Below are positions 40,167 to 50,058 of a DNA stretch of 64,000 nt, piece after piece. Within the stretch, counting starts at the first letter, position 1. Every line of letters begins with the position of its first letter. The DNA is from Paracoccaceae bacterium. Lineage in GTDB: Bacteria; Pseudomonadota; Alphaproteobacteria; Rhodobacterales; Rhodobacteraceae. The position numbers were made by a program, and so were the translations under genes. Under the pieces are notes generated by a model. The model searched no databases and had not been told where the DNA came from. It was given only the letters and a program-made list of their open reading frames with translations. Location: assembly GCA_028874915.1 (NCBI GenBank), contig JAPPHA010000032.1, forward strand, positions 1 to 64,000, in the 5' to 3' direction.

Positions 40167-42260
40167 GTGACGTCGATTCCCTCGCTCACGGAAACACGCC
40201 GCATGCCGGGTCGAAATCTCAGTTTGATACGGGCTTTGCTTCTTGCGTTGCTCTGTATCCAGGCGAATCCGGCCGTTGCGCTCCCGGAGGAAACACTCAG
40301 GTCGGTGGTTTCTGTCCTGCCCGTCTGGCCCGGGCGCGCCCAGGGCGGAGCCGGCGGACCCCCGGGCGTTGCGCCTGAAGGCAGTGGCGTGGTCCTGCGG
40401 CCGGGATTGGTCGCAACGGCCTGGCACGTGGTCGAACCCGCCAAGCGGATCGATGTCCGCCTCTGGGACGGGAGAATCCTGCATGCGCAGCTGATTGCCG
40501 AGGACGTTGCCAGCGACATCGCCATTCTGGGCGTCAACGCTCAGGCCGGGCTTGTGCCGATCGAGATTGCCCCCCCACCCGGACTGGCCGAGCCGGTCTG
40601 CGCCGTCGGCAATGCCTTCGGTCTCGGACTGTCCGTGACCTGCGGCGTCGTGTCCGCGCTCAACATTTCCAATGCGGGATTCAATCCCGTCGAAGACTTT
40701 GTCATGACGGATGCCGCCGCGAACCCGGGCGTTTCGGGTGGTGCCCTGGTCGACATGGACGGTCGCCTGGTCGGCATGATGTCGGCGATCTTCGCCTCAG
40801 AGGGCGAAACCAACATCGGAGTCAATTTCGCCGTGTCGACGGATCTGCTCCTTCGGGTCGTCGACGCGCTGTCGTCCGATGGTGAGGTCTGGTATCCGTC
40901 GGCAGGCTGGCGGCTGGAATTCGCTCGCCGGAATCAAGCAGCGACCGTTTCAGCGCCGGTGGTCAGCAATGTCAGCGATGGCAGCCCCGCGGCGTTCGCC
41001 GGCATCCTTGCCGGTGACCGGATCCTGACAATCGGTCCGCGCCGGATCCGGACACCGCGCGATGCCATTTCAGCGCTGGCCGTCATTCCCGACACCGTCG
41101 ATTCCGTGGACGTCACTGTCCAGCGCGACGGCCGACAGCGTGTCGTCGCCCTGTCCTTCGACGTCGAACCGACAAAGGTGGCAGAGGCCGACGCAGAGAC
41201 GCCGGAACAGCTGGGAGACTGTCCGCATCCGGCACCAGTCTGCCGTGTCCGCCAAGCCATCTTCCCGGTTTCCAGCTTCGATCCGATCGCCAGCGCGACC
41301 CGGATCGGGCCCACCTTGCTGGTCACCAACCGGCACGTCGTGGCTGACCGTCCGGACGCGGTCGTGCATACGCCGGATGGGCCAAGGGGCGCACGAGTGA
41401 TCCCCTCCGCCTATCCCGGAGATCTGGCGCTACTCGCTGTCGAGGGTCTGCCCGAAGACGGCCATATTCCGGAACTCGACGGGAGAATCCGCGATGACAG
41501 CTCGTTCTACGCGGTCGGAGCCGATATCGCCCGGCAAGAGGTTCGCGTCTTCGATCCCGGCGGACTGATCGCGAGGCCGGCGGAAGGGGCGCGTCTCGGA
41601 CGGCTCCATGTTCGAGCGCGCATGCAGCCCGGCGTCAGTGGAGGCGCACTTGTCAACGAAGCGGGCGAGCTCGTGGGCATTGCCGTGGGCGGCGGCGAAG
41701 GTCGATACGAAGCGGTGCCACTTGACGGAATTCGAGCCCTCCTCGAACAGCGCACGGACGCTTCGGCCGCGAACGTCACGCACCGTCTGGGAACTGCCCT
41801 GTCGGACTGTACCGCCAGAGTGGACACCTTTCGACCGCGAGAGGCCAGCGAGTCCGAACGCGAATCGCTGCTTGATTCCTGCTCCGCGACCCGCAACCCG
41901 GGCCAGTTTCTCGAAGCCGGGCGCGTTCTGGCGCAGGCGGGCGACTTTGAAGGAGCCATCGCCCTGCACGGTCAGGCGGCGGCCCAGGTCCCGAACTCGA
42001 TCAACGCGCGGGTCTCGCTCCTCGTGTCGCTTCAACTCGCCGGGCGTTTCGACGAAATGACGGGCCATGCCCGCTGGTTAATGGGCATGGCACCGGCGGA
42101 TCCGCAGGCCCTTCGGTTCGCCATCCAGTCCGGCGTGTGGGGGAACGACCCGGATCTTGCCGAAGAGGGTTATCGGGCGCTTCTCAAGGCAGACCCGCAA
42201 CAGGCGGAGGCTGCACGCCGGTTTATCGACAATGATCCGCCCGCGCCCCAGCGCCGGTGA
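40167..42260 (+). CDS. exported protein with two trypsin-like protease domains, a PDZ-like domain and C-terminal repeats
   Basis: A protein of about 697 residues. After a signal peptide (LIRALLLALLCIQANPAVA) come two complete trypsin-like domains on one chain. The first has TAWHVV, ASDIAIL and NPGVSGGAL, and the second VTNRHVV, PGDLALL and QPGVSGGAL, so His, Asp and Ser are present in both. Between them a PDZ-like domain (VVSNVSDGSPAAFAGILAGDRILTIGPRRI) resembles DegP, which has one protease domain. The C-terminal 150 residues contain TPR-like helical repeats (AGRVLAQAGDFEGAIALHGQAAA, YRALLKADPQQAEAARRF). I chose GTG 40167, with GAGGG upstream; ATG 40203 is an alternative. Probably a periplasmic quality-control or processing protease. 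Confidence 0.82.
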   Translation: MTSIPSLTETRRMPGRNLSLIRALLLALLCIQANPAVALPEETLRSVVSVLPVWPGRAQGGAGGPPGVAPEGSGVVLRPGLVATAWHVVEPAKRIDVRLWDGRILHAQLIAEDVASDIAILGVNAQAGLVPIEIAPPPGLAEPVCAVGNAFGLGLSVTCGVVSALNISNAGFNPVEDFVMTDAAANPGVSGGALVDMDGRLVGMMSAIFASEGETNIGVNFAVSTDLLLRVVDALSSDGEVWYPSAGWRLEFARRNQAATVSAPVVSNVSDGSPAAFAGILAGDRILTIGPRRIRTPRDAISALAVIPDTVDSVDVTVQRDGRQRVVALSFDVEPTKVAEADAETPEQLGDCPHPAPVCRVRQAIFPVSSFDPIASATRIGPTLLVTNRHVVADRPDAVVHTPDGPRGARVIPSAYPGDLALLAVEGLPEDGHIPELDGRIRDDSSFYAVGADIARQEVRVFDPGGLIARPAEGARLGRLHVRARMQPGVSGGALVNEAGELVGIAVGGGEGRYEAVPLDGIRALLEQRTDASAANVTHRLGTALSDCTARVDTFRPREASESERESLLDSCSATRNPGQFLEAGRVLAQAGDFEGAIALHGQAAAQVPNSINARVSLLVSLQLAGRFDEMTGHARWLMGMAPADPQALRFAIQSGVWGNDPDLAEEGYRALLKADPQQAEAARRFIDNDPPAPQRR

Positions 42261-42263
42261 CGG

Positions 42264-43559
42264 TCAATCCGAGAGCGGATCGGGAATCCAACCGACCGAA
42301 ACGACATCTTCACGCTCGAACGGAGACGGCGTCGCGCGCGCAAGGATCCGCGCCCGGAGTTCGGCAATTGTCAATTCCGGGGATCGTGCCAGTATTCGTG
42401 CCGCGAGGGCAGCCAGGCGCGGAACCGCGTAGCTGGATCCGGACGCGGTCCCCGAGGCCCCGCGAAAATCGACGATTCCCAGGTTTTCGGCGGGCAGCAT
42501 GATGTCGACACTGATCGCCCCCCAGTTCGACCCCGAAGCGAGGCGCCCGAAACTGTCGGCCGAGGTCACGGTGATGATGTTCTCATTCGGAAAGGCGGCC
42601 GGAAAGACCGGATCCTCGTCGATGTCGCGACCGTCGTTTCCGGCGGAAACGATGGCCAGGATGTCGAGACCGCGGAGGGCCTTTTCGAACGCACGCCACT
42701 CCTCGGGGTCGCGGCTGCCGAGAGGGAGAGCGAGGATACGGGCCCCGGAGTTCACTGCCCGCGTGACCAGTTCACCCATGCGACTCATGTCGGGACGGGG
42801 ATAGCGATACGGGATCAGCCTGGCGTCGGGTGCTTCGGTCGCCAGCACCGATGCGACCGCCGTTCCGTGGCGGATGGGAAGAAAGGTCCCGCGCGAGACA
42901 TCCCCGTCGTAGGGCCAGGGATCGAGGTCCCAGAAGTCGTAACCGAGCGGATTTCCCCCGCTGTCCCGCGCCAGCCGGTTCCGGAACAGCGGCAGATCAT
43001 AGGCCAGTCCCGAGTCGACATGGGCGATCCGAACGCCGCCGTCGTCCTGCCCGTTCGGCCACGGGGCCTGCAGGGTCTCGGTCCACCGAAGCGTCGCGAG
43101 ATCGCTGTCCAGCTGATCGAGGTATCGCCAGATCTCACCTTCCGCCCGGAGAGCACGACCGGACCGGATGGCGCACCCGCCATCGGCAATGGCCAGCCGT
43201 GACGGCCGCGTCCCGTCGCCGTCATGAACGGCGTAGGACACGCGGAATTGGCGAAGCCTGCCATTGAATTGACGCCGTTCAATGACGATTTCGTCTGCCC
43301 TCGGAAGCATAAGGCGAACGACGATACGCAGCGGATTGTCGCCGTCCGGATACCGGGTTTCTTCCAGCAACCAACTGCCCGGAATGGCATCCTGGGCCTC
43401 CAGGCCCGACAGCCCGGGCAGCGGGCAGATCCGATCGACGGCGAGACGCAGCCATTGCGCTTCATCCTCGGGTTCGACCGAACGTGCATCCGGTGGCATC
43501 AAAGCCACCAGGCTGAACCCGAGGTGGAGTCCGAAGACCAACTTGGTCAGTCGCCGCAT
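42264..43559 (-). CDS. exported subtilisin-family (S8) serine protease
   Basis: A 431-residue protease with an N-terminal signal (MRRLTKLVFGLHLGFSLVALMPPDARS). About 170 residues of non-catalytic sequence precede the S8 catalytic domain. The triad is visible as aspartate in RIAHVDSGLAYDLP, histidine in IRHGTAVASVLA and serine in GTASGSSYAVPRLAALAARIL, with the oxyanion asparagine in IVSAGNDGRD. The gene is convergent with the double-trypsin gene, with only 3 bases between the stops. An in-frame GTG at 43583 is an alternative start. The substrate is unknown; pairing with another exported protease is notable. Confidence 0.88.
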   Translation of the reverse strand: MRRLTKLVFGLHLGFSLVALMPPDARSVEPEDEAQWLRLAVDRICPLPGLSGLEAQDAIPGSWLLEETRYPDGDNPLRIVVRLMLPRADEIVIERRQFNGRLRQFRVSYAVHDGDGTRPSRLAIADGGCAIRSGRALRAEGEIWRYLDQLDSDLATLRWTETLQAPWPNGQDDGGVRIAHVDSGLAYDLPLFRNRLARDSGGNPLGYDFWDLDPWPYDGDVSRGTFLPIRHGTAVASVLATEAPDARLIPYRYPRPDMSRMGELVTRAVNSGARILALPLGSRDPEEWRAFEKALRGLDILAIVSAGNDGRDIDEDPVFPAAFPNENIITVTSADSFGRLASGSNWGAISVDIMLPAENLGIVDFRGASGTASGSSYAVPRLAALAARILARSPELTIAELRARILARATPSPFEREDVVSVGWIPDPLSD

Positions 43560-45013: not shown

Positions 45014-45709
45014 TCAGACCCCCACGTATCGCGCCAGTCGTTCCTGATCATCCGCGAGTTCCACCGCCGGCAGCGTCTCGCGATTCCGCCCGTCCTCGAT
45101 GAAGGCGACGTTGTCCGCCAGTGACAGCACCGCATCAACACGCTGCTCCACCAGCACGATGGCGACATTCCGGCGCTTCATCCGGGCCACCATATCCTGG
45201 ATCAGCGCGATCATGGACGGCTGCAGCCCCTCGGTCGGCTCGTCGAGAAGCAGAATCTTCGGTTGGATGCAGAGAGCCCGGGCGAATGCCAGCATTTGCT
45301 GTTCTCCGCCGGAAAGCGTTGACGCCTGCTGACGCAACCGCTCCTGCAACCTGGGGAAGAGTCCGAGAACCGTCTCTCTCACCTCCCGCCCGGAACCGCC
45401 GGCCATCAACCCGATTTCCAAGTTCTCGGCAACGCTCAGTTCGGAGAACAGGCGACGTCCCTGAGGAATGTAGCCGATGCCGAGACGGGGTATCCGGTCC
45501 GCCGGCAGGCGGCTGATGTCCACTCCGTCGAGGATGATCTGACCTGAACGAAGCGGCAGATGATTCATGATCGCCTTCAGCGTCGTGGTCTTGCCGGCAC
45601 CGTTGCGCCCGAGAAGACAAAGGATCTCGCCAGGACCGACGGCGAGCGACAGGCCGAACAGTGCCTGGACCTGACCATAGGCCACTTCGATCCTGCGGAC
45701 CTCAAGCAT
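45014..45709 (-). CDS. livF: branched-chain amino acid-type ABC transporter ATP-binding protein LivF
   Basis: A 231-residue ATPase. Walker A is GRNGAGKTT, signature LSGGEQQMLAFARAL and Walker B ILLLDEPTEGL, with switch histidine region replaced in the usual LivF way by VEQRVD. The start MLEVRRIEVAYGQVQALFGLSLAV is typical. It is the last gene of a livKHMGF operon, beginning 3 nt after livG. It energises uptake of the ligand bound by the binding protein at 48.4-49.7 kb. Confidence 0.93.
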   Translation of the reverse strand: MLEVRRIEVAYGQVQALFGLSLAVGPGEILCLLGRNGAGKTTTLKAIMNHLPLRSGQIILDGVDISRLPADRIPRLGIGYIPQGRRLFSELSVAENLEIGLMAGGSGREVRETVLGLFPRLQERLRQQASTLSGGEQQMLAFARALCIQPKILLLDEPTEGLQPSMIALIQDMVARMKRRNVAIVLVEQRVDAVLSLADNVAFIEDGRNRETLPAVELADDQERLARYVGV

Positions 45710-45712
45710 CGC

Positions 45713-46441
45713 TCAGGGGGACCCGCTGCCGAGATAGGCCCGCTGCACGGAGGCGTCGGCCCGGATCTCGGCCGGTGTTCCCTCCGCGAGTCGCCGACCC
45801 CCATCGAGGACGGTAATGTACTCTGCAGTCTCCATGACCACCCGCATGTTGTGCTCGATCAGGAGAATCGTGGTCTCACCTCCGAGGGTACGGATCAGGG
45901 CCTTGAAGGTCTCGACTTCGCTTTCCGCCAGCCCCTGCGTCGGCTCATCAAGGATGAACAATCGCGGCGTCTGGCCGAGACCCATGGCGATCTCAAGAAG
46001 CCGTTGGTGCCCGTAACTGAGTTCACCCGCCGTCTGGTAGGCCCGGCCGGCAAGCCCGACCCGGTCCAGGACCGCCGCCACACGCTGGTCGACCGCAGCC
46101 GGATGGGGCTGGGCCAATGCCCGGCGGACGGCCAGTGCCACGTTTTCATGAAGTGACAGGCGGGCAAAAATCGATGTGATCTGGAAACTGTAGGCCATTC
46201 CGAGCCCGATCCGGCGATGCGCCGCGAGGTCCGTGATGTCCCGTCCGGCAAACCTCACATCCCCCCTGGAAGCCGGAATCCGACCGCAGATCATGCCGAC
46301 GAAGGTCGACTTGCCGGCACCGTTGGGACCGATCAACGCCCGGATCTGCCCTTCCGGCAGGTCGAAATCCACGTCCCGGACCGCCTCAAGGCCGCCAAAG
46401 CTTTTCGACAGGCCGCGGGTCGAAAGGAGCGGTGCGGTCAT
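45713..46441 (-). CDS. livG: branched-chain amino acid-type ABC transporter ATP-binding protein LivG
   Basis: A 242-residue ATPase. Walker A is GPNGAGKST, the signature [15 protein letters not shown], Walker [12 protein letters not shown] and switch histidine in [11 protein letters not shown]. The signature is the LSYGxQR form typical of LivG. The start is ATG 46441, which overlaps the livM stop (ATGA); the same frame remains open far upstream through livM by chance. It partners LivF as a heterodimer. Confidence 0.93.
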
Positions 46442-47427
46442 GGCAACCAGGACATCAACCGCCGCCGAAGCTCCCCCGCAAGTCCCTGTGGTGCGAAAAT
46501 GGTTAGGAGCACCAGCGCCAGGCCCGCGATCAGCATGTAGGCGGATGTCACACCGCTGGCGAGATCGATCAGGTAGAACATGAACACCGTGCCGATGAAG
46601 GGGCCGATGGTCGTCCCGGCACCGCCGAGGAGCACCCAGAGAAGCGGAAGGATCGAGTACTGGACCGACGCGAATGTGGCGCCGGCATAACCGAAGAGCA
46701 GGGCGTAGGCGGCACCGGCTGCGCCCGACATGGTTCCGGATATGATAACCGCCCCGAGCTTGTGGGCGAGGACATCGTAACCGAGAAGCCGTGCGCGCTC
46801 CTCGTTTTCGCGGATGGCGACGAGGCAGCGTCCAAAGGGTGTCTGGACAAGCCAGGCTATGAGCAAAAGGCAGACACCAAACAGGGTCAACGCCGCAAAA
46901 TACCGGTTCGAAGGGTCGGTCAGGTCGATTCCGGCGACCTGTCGGGCGGCCTGCTGGATCACGAAACCTTCGTCGCCACGCGTGTACTCGCCGAACAGCA
47001 GGACTGTCAGAAACCCGGCCTGGGCGAACATCAGCGTGACGATCATGAAGGCGACGCCGCTGGTCCGGAGCGCCAGGAAACCGATCACGGCGGAAACCAC
47101 GAGCGCCGTGGCCAGGCCGCCGAGGAAGGCCGGCGCCGGCGTCGCACCAAGGAGATGCATCGGCAGGCCGAGCCCGTACATTCCGGCGGCGAAGAACAGC
47201 GCATGGCCGAGGCTCAGGAGCCCGGTGTAACCGAACAGGATGTTGTAACCCATGGCGTAGACGGCGAGCACCATGATCCGGGCGAGGTTTCCGTTGTGGT
47301 ATTCGGGCAGGATGAAATGGATGACGATCAGCCCGAGGATGATGCCGGCGTGAAGCAAGGGCGACCGGAATCGCGGCGTACGACCGACGGCTGGCCAATG
47401 GGGACTCTCGCCGGCCGGCGGGCTCAT
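46438..47427 (-). CDS. livM: branched-chain amino acid-type ABC transporter permease LivM
   Basis: A 329-residue permease with eight or more helices. Typical LivM stretches are [64 protein letters not shown] and [17 protein letters not shown]. The start overlaps the livH stop and the stop overlaps the livG start, each by 4 nt, so the operon is tightly coupled. Confidence 0.93.
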
Positions 47428-48350
47428 GTCTTCCGGCGCCCGAACAGGCCCTCCGGCCGGAATACCAAGACAAAGGCCACCAGCAGTGTGGCGAGGATCT
47501 TGGCCAGCGTTGGCGAAAAGAACACCGATATGATCCCGTCGCTCAACCCGATCAAAACGGCCGCGACGAGGGTACCGGGCAGGCTGCCAAGACCTCCGAT
47601 GATCACCGCGATGAAGGACAGGAGGAGCGGGTCGCCGCCCATAAGGTAATGCGCCTGCTGGACAGGGACGATGAGCACGGCGCCGAGTGCAGCCAGGCCG
47701 GCGCCGAGGCCAAACACGACGGCGTAGACCCTGGTGACCGGGATCCCGAAGGCCATGGCCATCTCACTGTCAAGCTGGGTGGCGCGCATGATCAGACCGA
47801 GGCGGGTCCGTTTCATCACCAGCCAAAGAGCCGTCAGGATCACGACGGCTGCCACAATGACGGCCAGTTTGTAACTGGTGGTACCAAGCCCCCAGGGCCA
47901 GACCAGCGACAGTCCTCCGTCGCCGAATTCGACCCACGGAATGGCCAGGCGGCGGTTGAACGGTGGCTCCACGGGCCTGGCATCCGGCCCGAAGGTCATC
48001 AGCGTCGCCTGCTGGATAATATAGAGGAGTCCGATGGTCGCGACGATCGTGCGCTCGGGATCATAGGTGATCCGGCGGAGCACAAGCCAGTCGGTGGCGG
48101 CGGCGATGACCCCGACTGTGGCAGGCGCGACGAGGATGGCGACCACAAAGCCGACCGCCGGATGACCACCGACGGCGGTCGCCACCCACCAGGCGATGAT
48201 CGCCCCCAGCATGAAGAACTCGCCATGGGCGACATTGACGATTCGCATGATGCCGAAGACGATGCTGAGGCCGACGGCCGTCAGGGAAATGACGGCCGCC
48301 GTGATGGCGCCCTCAAGCGTGGCAAGGATCAGATGAGGGCCGAAGTCCAC
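47424..48350 (-). CDS. livH: branched-chain amino acid-type ABC transporter permease LivH
   Basis: A 308-residue permease. TAVGLSIVFGIMRIVNVAHGEFFMLGA is the nearly invariant LivH N-terminus, followed by RRITYDPERTIVATIGLLYIIQQATLMTFG and the C-terminal VIIGGLGSLPGTLVAAVLIGLSDGI. It starts at GTG 48350. It pairs with LivM to form the membrane channel. The 78-nt gap to the binding-protein gene contains only a weak 5-bp hairpin. Confidence 0.93.
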   Translation of the reverse strand: MDFGPHLILATLEGAITAAVISLTAVGLSIVFGIMRIVNVAHGEFFMLGAIIAWWVATAVGGHPAVGFVVAILVAPATVGVIAAATDWLVLRRITYDPERTIVATIGLLYIIQQATLMTFGPDARPVEPPFNRRLAIPWVEFGDGGLSLVWPWGLGTTSYKLAVIVAAVVILTALWLVMKRTRLGLIMRATQLDSEMAMAFGIPVTRVYAVVFGLGAGLAALGAVLIVPVQQAHYLMGGDPLLLSFIAVIIGGLGSLPGTLVAAVLIGLSDGIISVFFSPTLAKILATLLVAFVLVFRPEGLFGRRKT

Positions 48351-48428
48351 CGGGATTCAGCCCCCGGACCCGCCGAACCGCTTGCCGCGACCGGGCCTCG
48401 CGTTGCCGTCCTCCGGCATCGGAGCGGA

Positions 48429-49724
48429 TCAGAAGGCCTGGGCCGTGTAGTCGGTCTCATCCTCGTAGAGCGTGTCCTCGATCGATGTCGTGTGCACCAC
48501 ATCAAGCCGCCCTTCGTTCACCCGCGAGATGTACTGGTGGCCGAACACCTGGTGGGTACGCCCGTTGAACACTTTGGCGCCCTGTGGGTGATCCAGCGAA
48601 TGCGGGAGATCGGTCATGGCCTCCACCGCCTCGATCAGCGCCGCCCGGTCGTCGGGACCGGCGTAACCGGAGGCTTCCATTCCAGCCTTGACGATGTTCA
48701 GCGTTTCCCAGCAGCCGAACATGTGAGCGTAGGTGGAAACGTCCTTCGAATCAGACAGGGCGGCACCGTTGTCGTCGACACCGACGGCTGCCCGGTAGGC
48801 CTTGTCGTACTCGGTCTGGTCAGCCTGGGCATAGCGGGGGTACCCTTCCCAGAAGTAACTGCCTTCGAGGAATTCGAGACCCGGGCTGGTGATGTCGACC
48901 GCTTCGAGGCTGTCGATGAAACCGAATATCTCCGGGCTGCTGGGACCGAAGAACTCGCCAAGTTCCTTGACAAAGGTCAGCACCGCAGGACCGACCATGA
49001 CGTGGTAGACCACCTCGGTATCCTGCGGGATTCTCGGAAAGTACTTTGTGAAGGCCGTCTCGGTTGGCGGAATTGCGATCTTCTCCACGACAGTCCCGCC
49101 CTGGCGTTCGATCGACGCCGAGAAATAGTCCCTGTGATCATGGCCGAACGCGAAATCCGGGAAGATCATCGTCACTTTCTTCCCGAGGTTTTCGGCGACA
49201 TAGGGCCCCATCGCTTCCACCTGGCTTTTCACGTCGGTGATCCCGGGTTGCAGCGTGTAGCGATTGAGTATGCCGCTCGCGACATGATGGCCCTCGGACA
49301 CCACGAAATACGGTATCTTCAGTTCGCCCGCACGCGGTGCCGAGCCGATCACCACATGGCTGAACAGGGTTCCAAAGGCGATGTCACAATTGTGCTGGGT
49401 CGCGAACTTCTCCACGACTTCAGCTCCCCGCTTGGGATCGGTGCCGTCGTCCTCGGCAATGATCTCCACAGGCCGTCCGTTTATTCCGCCGGCGTCGTTG
49501 ATTCGCCGGGCCGCGGCCTCGGTGGTCCGGTCGTACCAGCGGCCGTAGGCGGCACCGATGCCCGTCCGGTGGACCTGGAATCCGATGCGGATCGGTTCGG
49601 AGCTCTGGGCCTGGGCAAAACGGGCAGCCAAGGGGAGCGATCCGACCGCGGCCAGCGTTCCTATCGCCCGTCTGCGGGTCATTGTCCCCGGGAGATGTCC
49701 GGTCCTCGATCTGTTGTCCAGCAT
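48429..49724 (-). CDS. branched-chain amino acid-type substrate-binding protein, Tat-exported
   Basis: A 431-residue periplasmic binding protein of the LivK/amide-urea family. The N-terminus carries a twin-arginine signal (TMTRRRAIGTLAAVGSLPLAARFAQA). The mature part begins EPIRIGFQVHRTGIGAAYGRWYDRTTEAAARRINDAGGINGRPVEIIAEDDGTDPKRGAEVVEK, the family's classical first lobe. Length and the EFFGPSSPEIFGFIDSLEAVD region suit members that bind amides, urea or aromatic acids as well as amino acids. The start is ATG 49724 with AAGGAGA upstream. It leads the livHMGF operon; ligand unproven. Confidence 0.9.
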   Translation of the reverse strand: MLDNRSRTGHLPGTMTRRRAIGTLAAVGSLPLAARFAQAQSSEPIRIGFQVHRTGIGAAYGRWYDRTTEAAARRINDAGGINGRPVEIIAEDDGTDPKRGAEVVEKFATQHNCDIAFGTLFSHVVIGSAPRAGELKIPYFVVSEGHHVASGILNRYTLQPGITDVKSQVEAMGPYVAENLGKKVTMIFPDFAFGHDHRDYFSASIERQGGTVVEKIAIPPTETAFTKYFPRIPQDTEVVYHVMVGPAVLTFVKELGEFFGPSSPEIFGFIDSLEAVDITSPGLEFLEGSYFWEGYPRYAQADQTEYDKAYRAAVGVDDNGAALSDSKDVSTYAHMFGCWETLNIVKAGMEASGYAGPDDRAALIEAVEAMTDLPHSLDHPQGAKVFNGRTHQVFGHQYISRVNEGRLDVVHTTSIEDTLYEDETDYTAQAF

Positions 49725-50058
49725 TGGAGTTCTCCTTTTTGTCTCGACTCGGCGAATGCCAACTCCGCGGAGCCGGAACCTCTTCCGGGTCCAGGCATTC
49801 GCAACGGATATTGTTGGCAGCCCGAGGATTTGTCCAGTTTCCTTTGTTCGATCCGGACATGAAGCCGTGTACCACCCGGGCCGGTTTCCGTTGGACCGCG
49901 ACCGCAAGGCTGATAGGGGACGGAGCGGACAGATTCGCCCTCGCCCAATCGGGCACAACGGAAACCGGTGCGAAGCCCCGGATTCGGACTGTCACCGCAA
50001 TGATTGCGGATCGGACGCCGGGCCCGGGAAGCCAAACTGCCTTAGTGGAGACGCCCAG
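49725..50058. other. divergent intergenic region, no gene seen
   Basis: 334 bases between the Liv-type binding protein gene and the GyrI-like gene. It should hold the Liv operon promoter on the minus strand. No clear hexamer pair or RNA motif was found. Confidence 0.45.

Follow-up and report, generated by a model that had tools for sequence, protein, structure and literature searches.

The window analysed here is a stretch of 64,000 nucleotides from a Paracoccaceae bacterium (assembly GCA_028874915.1, contig JAPPHA010000032.1, positions 1 to 64,000). Within it, two genes for putatively exported serine proteases meet tail to tail. The plus-strand gene encodes a chain with two trypsin-like domains, a PDZ domain and TPR-like helices, hereafter the double protease, and the minus-strand gene encodes a subtilase. 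A sequence-only reading of this DNA had described such a tail-to-tail meeting with a signal-peptide-bearing subtilase, with 3 bases between the stops, and this was confirmed (stops at 42260 and 42264). It had bounded the pair at 40167-43559; position 43559 stands as the ATG of the subtilase, but 40167 is a GTG, and alignment with relatives makes ATG 40203, which directly precedes the signal peptide, the likelier start. Residues of the double protease are numbered from this ATG. The locus includes the following features.

40203..42260, + strand: double-trypsin PDZ gene, whole; 685 amino acids from the ATG, alternative start GTG 40167
40203..40280, + strand: likely Sec signal peptide of the double protease, ending AVA before LPEE; judged by eye, aligned relatives also having hydrophobic N-termini
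40302..40880, + strand: protease 1, HtrA-type trypsin domain; triad H75 (40425), D105 (40515), S178 (40734), Cys pair 133/147
40950..41162, + strand: PDZ domain, placed by PF13180 (3.7e-08) and the predicted model
41163..41216, + strand: variable linker, the joint of the putative fusion; mean pairwise identity 0.16, predicted local distance difference test (pLDDT) 35-40
41217..41756, + strand: protease 2, trypsin domain; triad H378 (41334), D407 (41421), S479 (41637), Cys pair 340/347
41757..42257, + strand: TPR-like helical domain, helices at residues 522-677; Cys pair 536/560, TPR_19 and TPR_14 below cut-off, mean identity 0.61
42258..42266, no strand: junction of the two genes, two stop codons with 3 bases between them
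42264..43559, - strand: subtilase gene, whole; 431 amino acids from ATG 43559, alternative start GTG 43583
42267..43124, - strand: subtilase catalytic domain; D182 (43016), H231 (42869), N308 (42638), S376 (42434)
43185..43472, - strand: subtilase N-terminal domain, residues 30-125; two helices and five strands, no Pfam match

Domains and active sites of the two proteins

Domain searches and a co-occurrence survey, both proposed in the sequence-only reading as checks, found protease domains in both proteins and, as described below, the subtilase in 15 of 19 genomes with the second half of the double protease. In the double protease, Pfam identified two stretches of Trypsin_2 (PF13365, 7.1e-39 for the whole protein) and one PDZ domain, the only one found (PDZ_2, above its cut-off with 34 vs 27 bits), while its C-terminus matched TPR_19 (6.8e-04) and TPR_14 (1.6e-04) under the Pfam cut-offs. 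A phmmer search placed protease 1 and the PDZ domain nearest to the chains of DegP, DegQ and DegS (best E 5.7e-35, DegP). The protein does not reach the NCBIfam cut-offs of TIGR02037 (207.6 vs 416.2 bits) or TIGR02038 (153.2 vs 422.95 bits), scores that the fused second half neither raises nor lowers. The predicted model (mean pLDDT 75) consists of two beta barrels, one PDZ domain and about ten C-terminal helices, and a structural aligner matched its residues ~20-320 with HtrA chains at Z 24-28. Because the listed structural matches cover protease 1 and the PDZ domain, the assignment of protease 2 and the helices rests on Pfam, alignment and the model. Together, Pfam, the alignments and the model bear out the earlier description of a single exported chain with two complete trypsin triads, a PDZ domain and TPR-like repeats.

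Both triads, H75/D105/S178 and H378/D407/S479, are invariant in 13/13 aligned family members and in 14/14 full-length fused copies. The second set holds three genomes more than the first and leaves out the partial copies L046 and L047, which the first includes; over both sets combined, the two triads are intact in all 16 fused copies. Mean pairwise identity among the 14 full-length copies falls from 0.73 in protease 1 to 0.66 in protease 2 and 0.61 in the helical part, and is lower still in the PDZ domain (0.46) and the linker (0.16). Judged by these residues, both active sites look live. The second protease domain, whose function the sequence-only reading had left in question, has kept its triad and is almost as well conserved as protease 1 (0.66 vs 0.73). 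Six cysteines are also invariant in the 14 full-length copies, two each in protease 1, protease 2 and the helical part.

The minus-strand protein matches Peptidase_S8 (PF00082, 2.5e-18, 66.8 bits vs a cut-off of 21.8) and bears D182, H231 and S376 with the oxyanion residue N308. It consists of a likely signal peptide, an N-terminal domain specific to the family and the subtilase domain. The predicted model is of moderate confidence (mean pLDDT 64), and its catalytic part matches the subtilase fold with Z up to 21.8. No known pro-domain, the inhibitor I9 type included, was matched by Pfam, and the structural matches listed for the whole model span residues 146-431. The best NCBIfam model is mycosin, whose cut-off is not reached. 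Two cysteines are invariant in 21/21 aligned subtilase rows; these and the invariant cysteines of the double protease would fit disulphides formed outside the cytoplasm.

In three subtilase orthologues of one family, from G654, G426 and G557, the catalytic His is replaced by Q, the Asn by P and the Ser by G, a joint loss that probably happened in one event in one lineage. The genes with Q, P and G at these sites, L214:7094-8527, L215:7902-9194 and L216:7115-8407, are likely to encode pseudoproteases, judging from these substitutions. In the three genomes, two of which are incomplete, no trypsin-TPR unit was found, and the DegP-like matches were ordinary ones only. A distant subtilase relative in G379 (31% identity) lies downstream of an ATP-binding cassette (ABC) exporter gene and an apparent partner gene (region L219:1277-7650). 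The subtilase tree, in which the long branches of G379 and G532 come together, was not used for rooting.

Conservation of the pair and separate forms of its units

A scan of 84,980 species genomes yielded 12 loci with close relatives of the double protease, L037-L048, and a single distant match of DegP type, L049. The 12 close relatives, together with the window, a genome of the same genus (G196, L050) and two genomes from a survey of the class (G497 and G429), make up the 16 fused copies analysed here. A subtilase orthologue stands tail to tail with 11 of the 16 (window, L037-L043, L048, L050 and L218), at a stop-to-stop gap of -7 to 62 bp, and the pairing noted in the window is thus conserved. 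In G497 (L217) the convergent order is retained with one gene inserted between the two, and in G204 (L044) the subtilase orthologue is on a separate contig. The inserted gene encodes a methyl-accepting chemotaxis protein (L217:8124-10211); this is the sole case of retained order with an insertion. In G206 the contig ends within the double-protease gene, and in G207 (L047:7440-7680) an in-frame stop interrupts the gene beyond protease 2; no subtilase orthologue was found in this genome.

The other neighbours of the pair mostly differ between loci, according to clustering of the open reading frames of 14 loci. Shared flanks are limited to L040, L044 and L046, which have formate dehydrogenase genes upstream, and to L038 and L039, which share downstream genes. 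A larger conserved operon was considered and rejected, as the same clustering over 14 loci showed no third conserved gene. In the window, an ABC transporter cluster of the branched-chain-amino-acid type (45014-49958, - strand) lies one gene further on; the other loci do not have the same cluster. A plasmid-borne module was likewise rejected: when both proteins were compared by tblastn with 72,556 plasmid records, no match spanned 80% of the query, and those obtained were partial and DegP-like or S8-like. An anti-phage system was rejected too, the PADLOC matches being weak and confined to the protease parts; the best, to the defence gene RT-Protease_XI (8.2e-14), covered the protease 2 region only, and Pfam found no reverse transcriptase.

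Searching with the C-terminal half of the double protease, we found strong matches (E below 1e-50) to a trypsin-TPR unit in 6 of 279 genomes of the class. Three of these carry the fused form (G000, G497 and G429) and three a stand-alone trypsin-TPR gene (G480, G628 and G584). The latter three each encode a separate HtrA-PDZ protein of 47-50% identity as well, their other DegP-like matches being at 40% or less. In G480 the HtrA-PDZ and subtilase genes lie on one strand with an overlap of 26 bp, and a convergent trypsin-TPR gene follows at a distance of 17 bp; G628 carries each of the three on a contig of its own; and G584 has the HtrA-PDZ and trypsin-TPR genes with no subtilase match. A further genome, G465 (68% complete), holds a subtilase gene and a cut-off HtrA-PDZ gene on the same contig. 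Each of the six split proteins, three HtrA-PDZ and three trypsin-TPR, retains its triad motif, and in the split genes protease 2 begins straight after a hydrophobic N-terminus of its own.

In a tree rooted on 12 DegP-type rows, the 16 fused protease 1 units form one clade with 100/100 support, and the three split forms are basal to it, with moderate support (85-87) at the inner fork. The partial rows L046 and L047 were excluded from a second tree and from the identity calculation. Because the fused copies form one clade and the split forms are basal, the history is most simply read as a single fusion of ancestrally separate genes. Upstream of a stand-alone trypsin-TPR gene, an open reading frame of 154 amino acids with a likely signal peptide (L208:8590-9054) matched nothing in Pfam or NCBIfam. 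The stand-alone HtrA-PDZ gene of G584 is in line with genes for an ABC permease, TupB-like (tungstate or molybdate type), and an ATPase (region L241:4473-6947).

Co-occurrence was scored with weaker matches, to generic trypsins and generic subtilases, taken as absent, and with G377 and G203 (Ruegeria profundi) counted once. Among the 279 class genomes, a subtilase orthologue (E below 1e-60) is present in 10, the trypsin-TPR unit in 6 and both in 5. In a survey of the order the trypsin-TPR unit was found in 2 of 390 genomes, both with the subtilase; no other genome had a close subtilase orthologue, the one in G379 being that at 31% identity. The distant subtilases found in that survey (L112-L139) had no matching trypsin relative of the double protease next to them. 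Over all surveys, 15 of the 19 distinct genomes with the trypsin-TPR unit also hold the subtilase.

A proposed three-protease module and other readings

We consider it probable that the pair represents a functional module of three extracytoplasmic proteases, two of them fused. Its unit A would be an HtrA-type protease that bears one PDZ domain; unit B would combine a trypsin-like protease and a TPR-like helical domain; and unit C would be a subtilase that has an N-terminal domain of its own. In the window genome a single fused chain contains both A and B, and the gene for C meets the A-B gene tail to tail. The three would work on shared clients outside the cytoplasm: the PDZ domain and TPR helices may select or hold the client, A and B may cut it in tandem, and C may add a further cut or complete its degradation. 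The A-B fusion would fix a 1:1 ratio of the two units. The sequence-only reading had already suggested that the two genes are parts of one envelope proteolysis system, and this is now well supported by their adjacency, their co-occurrence, the split cluster of all three units, the signal peptides and the invariant cysteine pairs. These features, together with the anatomy and conserved triads of the module, are established at the level of sequence. The loss of catalytic residues in the three subtilase orthologues that lack the partners also speaks for the module, though it probably represents one event.

Several observations weigh against this proposal. Convergent genes are not co-transcribed. 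Four of the 19 genomes with the trypsin-TPR unit (G205, G206, G207 and G584) have no detectable subtilase orthologue, among them the three fused-copy genomes G205 (Roseibium polysiphoniae), G206 and G207; in R. polysiphoniae the double protease is intact, which argues against strict dependence of one partner on the other. Conversely, G532 holds a subtilase orthologue with an intact catalytic set and no trypsin partners. The association in the class, with the query genome left out (n = 278; both 4, trypsin-TPR only 1, subtilase only 5, neither 268; Fisher p 2.5e-06), comes from a test that treats genomes as independent and ignores kinship.

A more specific version of the three-protease module is possible but doubtful. 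It would be a dedicated extracytoplasmic machine with three serine sites (two S1, one S8), in which the HtrA and trypsin-TPR units were fused once, two live sites share one chain, and the subtilase ends an ordered relay on one particular client, perhaps formate dehydrogenase or another exported metalloenzyme. That the module serves just one client system, by maturing or checking the quality of an FDH3-type periplasmic formate dehydrogenase or of its WD40-cytochrome c, we regard as improbable. The name FDH3 comes from G584, which has a homologous operon. In many Rhodobacterales-like genomes, FDH3-type operons are followed by a gene for a WD40 beta-propeller joined to cytochrome c (e.g. L040:4463-5743). 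The lead arose from 3 of 14 loci (L040, L044 and L046), in which an FDH3-type operon is followed directly by the fused gene, and from the HtrA-PDZ gene of G584, beside the TupB-like permease gene and ~17 kb from the formate dehydrogenase operon. WD40-cytochrome c matches are also found in all 19 trypsin-TPR genomes vs 142 of 390 order genomes (E <= 1e-45, counted by eye), a baseline that covers the order only and ignores kinship. However, 140 of these 142 genomes do not have the module, and the WD40-cytochrome c gene of the window genome does not adjoin the FDH3 cytochrome b. The link is not general, because none of 30 ordinary WD40-cytochrome c loci has a trypsin gene within 1.5 kb.

The remaining readings concern how, or whether, the two proteins work together. 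In a zymogen cascade, which had been part of the sequence-only reading and which we find unlikely, one protease would activate the other: the HtrA-type unit might remove the N-terminal domain of the subtilase, or the subtilase might cut the linker between the PDZ domain and protease 2 and free the halves. The module is conserved, the subtilase does have a separate N-terminal domain, and the linker is variable and modelled with low confidence, so that a cut there would give the proteins that are separate in G480, G628 and G584. But those split forms require no cut, Pfam found no known pro-domain in the subtilase, and the Roseibium double protease is intact without a subtilase. It is very improbable that the two genes are functionally unrelated and were kept together by shared descent, joint transfer or overlapping 3' ends. 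Convergent neighbours need not have a common function, the module is rare in the order, and several genomes hold one part only; yet the adjacency persists while flanking genes change, the subtilase orthologue is retained even when unlinked (G204), and the split form of G480 clusters all three units, two of them on one strand. Least credible, to the point of being nearly negligible, is a catalytically dead protease 2 serving as a scaffold. Its precedent is what is reported of the second protease domain of plant Deg7 (PMC3473262), and it is contradicted by a triad that is invariant in all 16 fused copies and present in 3/3 split relatives.

Comparison with known systems

No description of a bacterial double-trypsin PDZ protein or of an HtrA-subtilase cluster was found in the open-licence literature. 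Table 3 of a 2008 survey of prokaryotic serine proteases gives 16 trypsin architectures; neither two trypsin domains nor TPR occur in any of them (PMC2605481). Fused and split forms together amount to a natural experiment, the same units being separate genes in some Alphaproteobacteria and one chain in others. The question of why two proteases share one chain thus becomes directly testable, and Ruegeria profundi is an isolate that holds the pair.

The subtilase shares the Peptidase_S8 domain and its triad with the mycosin, QhpE and PatA subtilases, but falls far under the cut-offs of these models (71.1 vs 278.75, 38.8 vs 165 and 30.8 vs 421.05 bits, respectively), and its N-terminal domain is without a Pfam match. 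A likeness in working is offered by Bordetella, whose SphB1 is subtilisin-like. There, DegP starts the processing of the exported protein FhaB and is followed by CtpA and SphB1, which puts an HtrA protease and a further serine protease in sequence on a single client (PMC8263021). That account does not describe the DegP, CtpA and SphB1 genes as one locus or fusion (PMC8263021); the likeness is one of working only.

Similar in build are the HtrA/Deg proteases (S1C), with which protease 1 shares a trypsin-like domain with a His-Asp-Ser triad and a PDZ domain that follows it. The double protease differs from them in its single PDZ domain and in the second protease, with intact triad, and the helices that are fused on; the fused family also forms its own clade apart from the 12 DegP-type rows. 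The sequence-only reading had held that DegP-like proteases have one protease domain, to which plants provide exceptions. Plant Deg7 combines two protease domains, the second degenerate, with four PDZ domains in one HtrA-type chain (PMC3473262). The double protease resembles it in having two protease domains per chain, seen as the two PF13365 stretches, and differs in that both triads are intact, H378/D407/S479 being invariant, and in its one PDZ domain and C-terminal helices.

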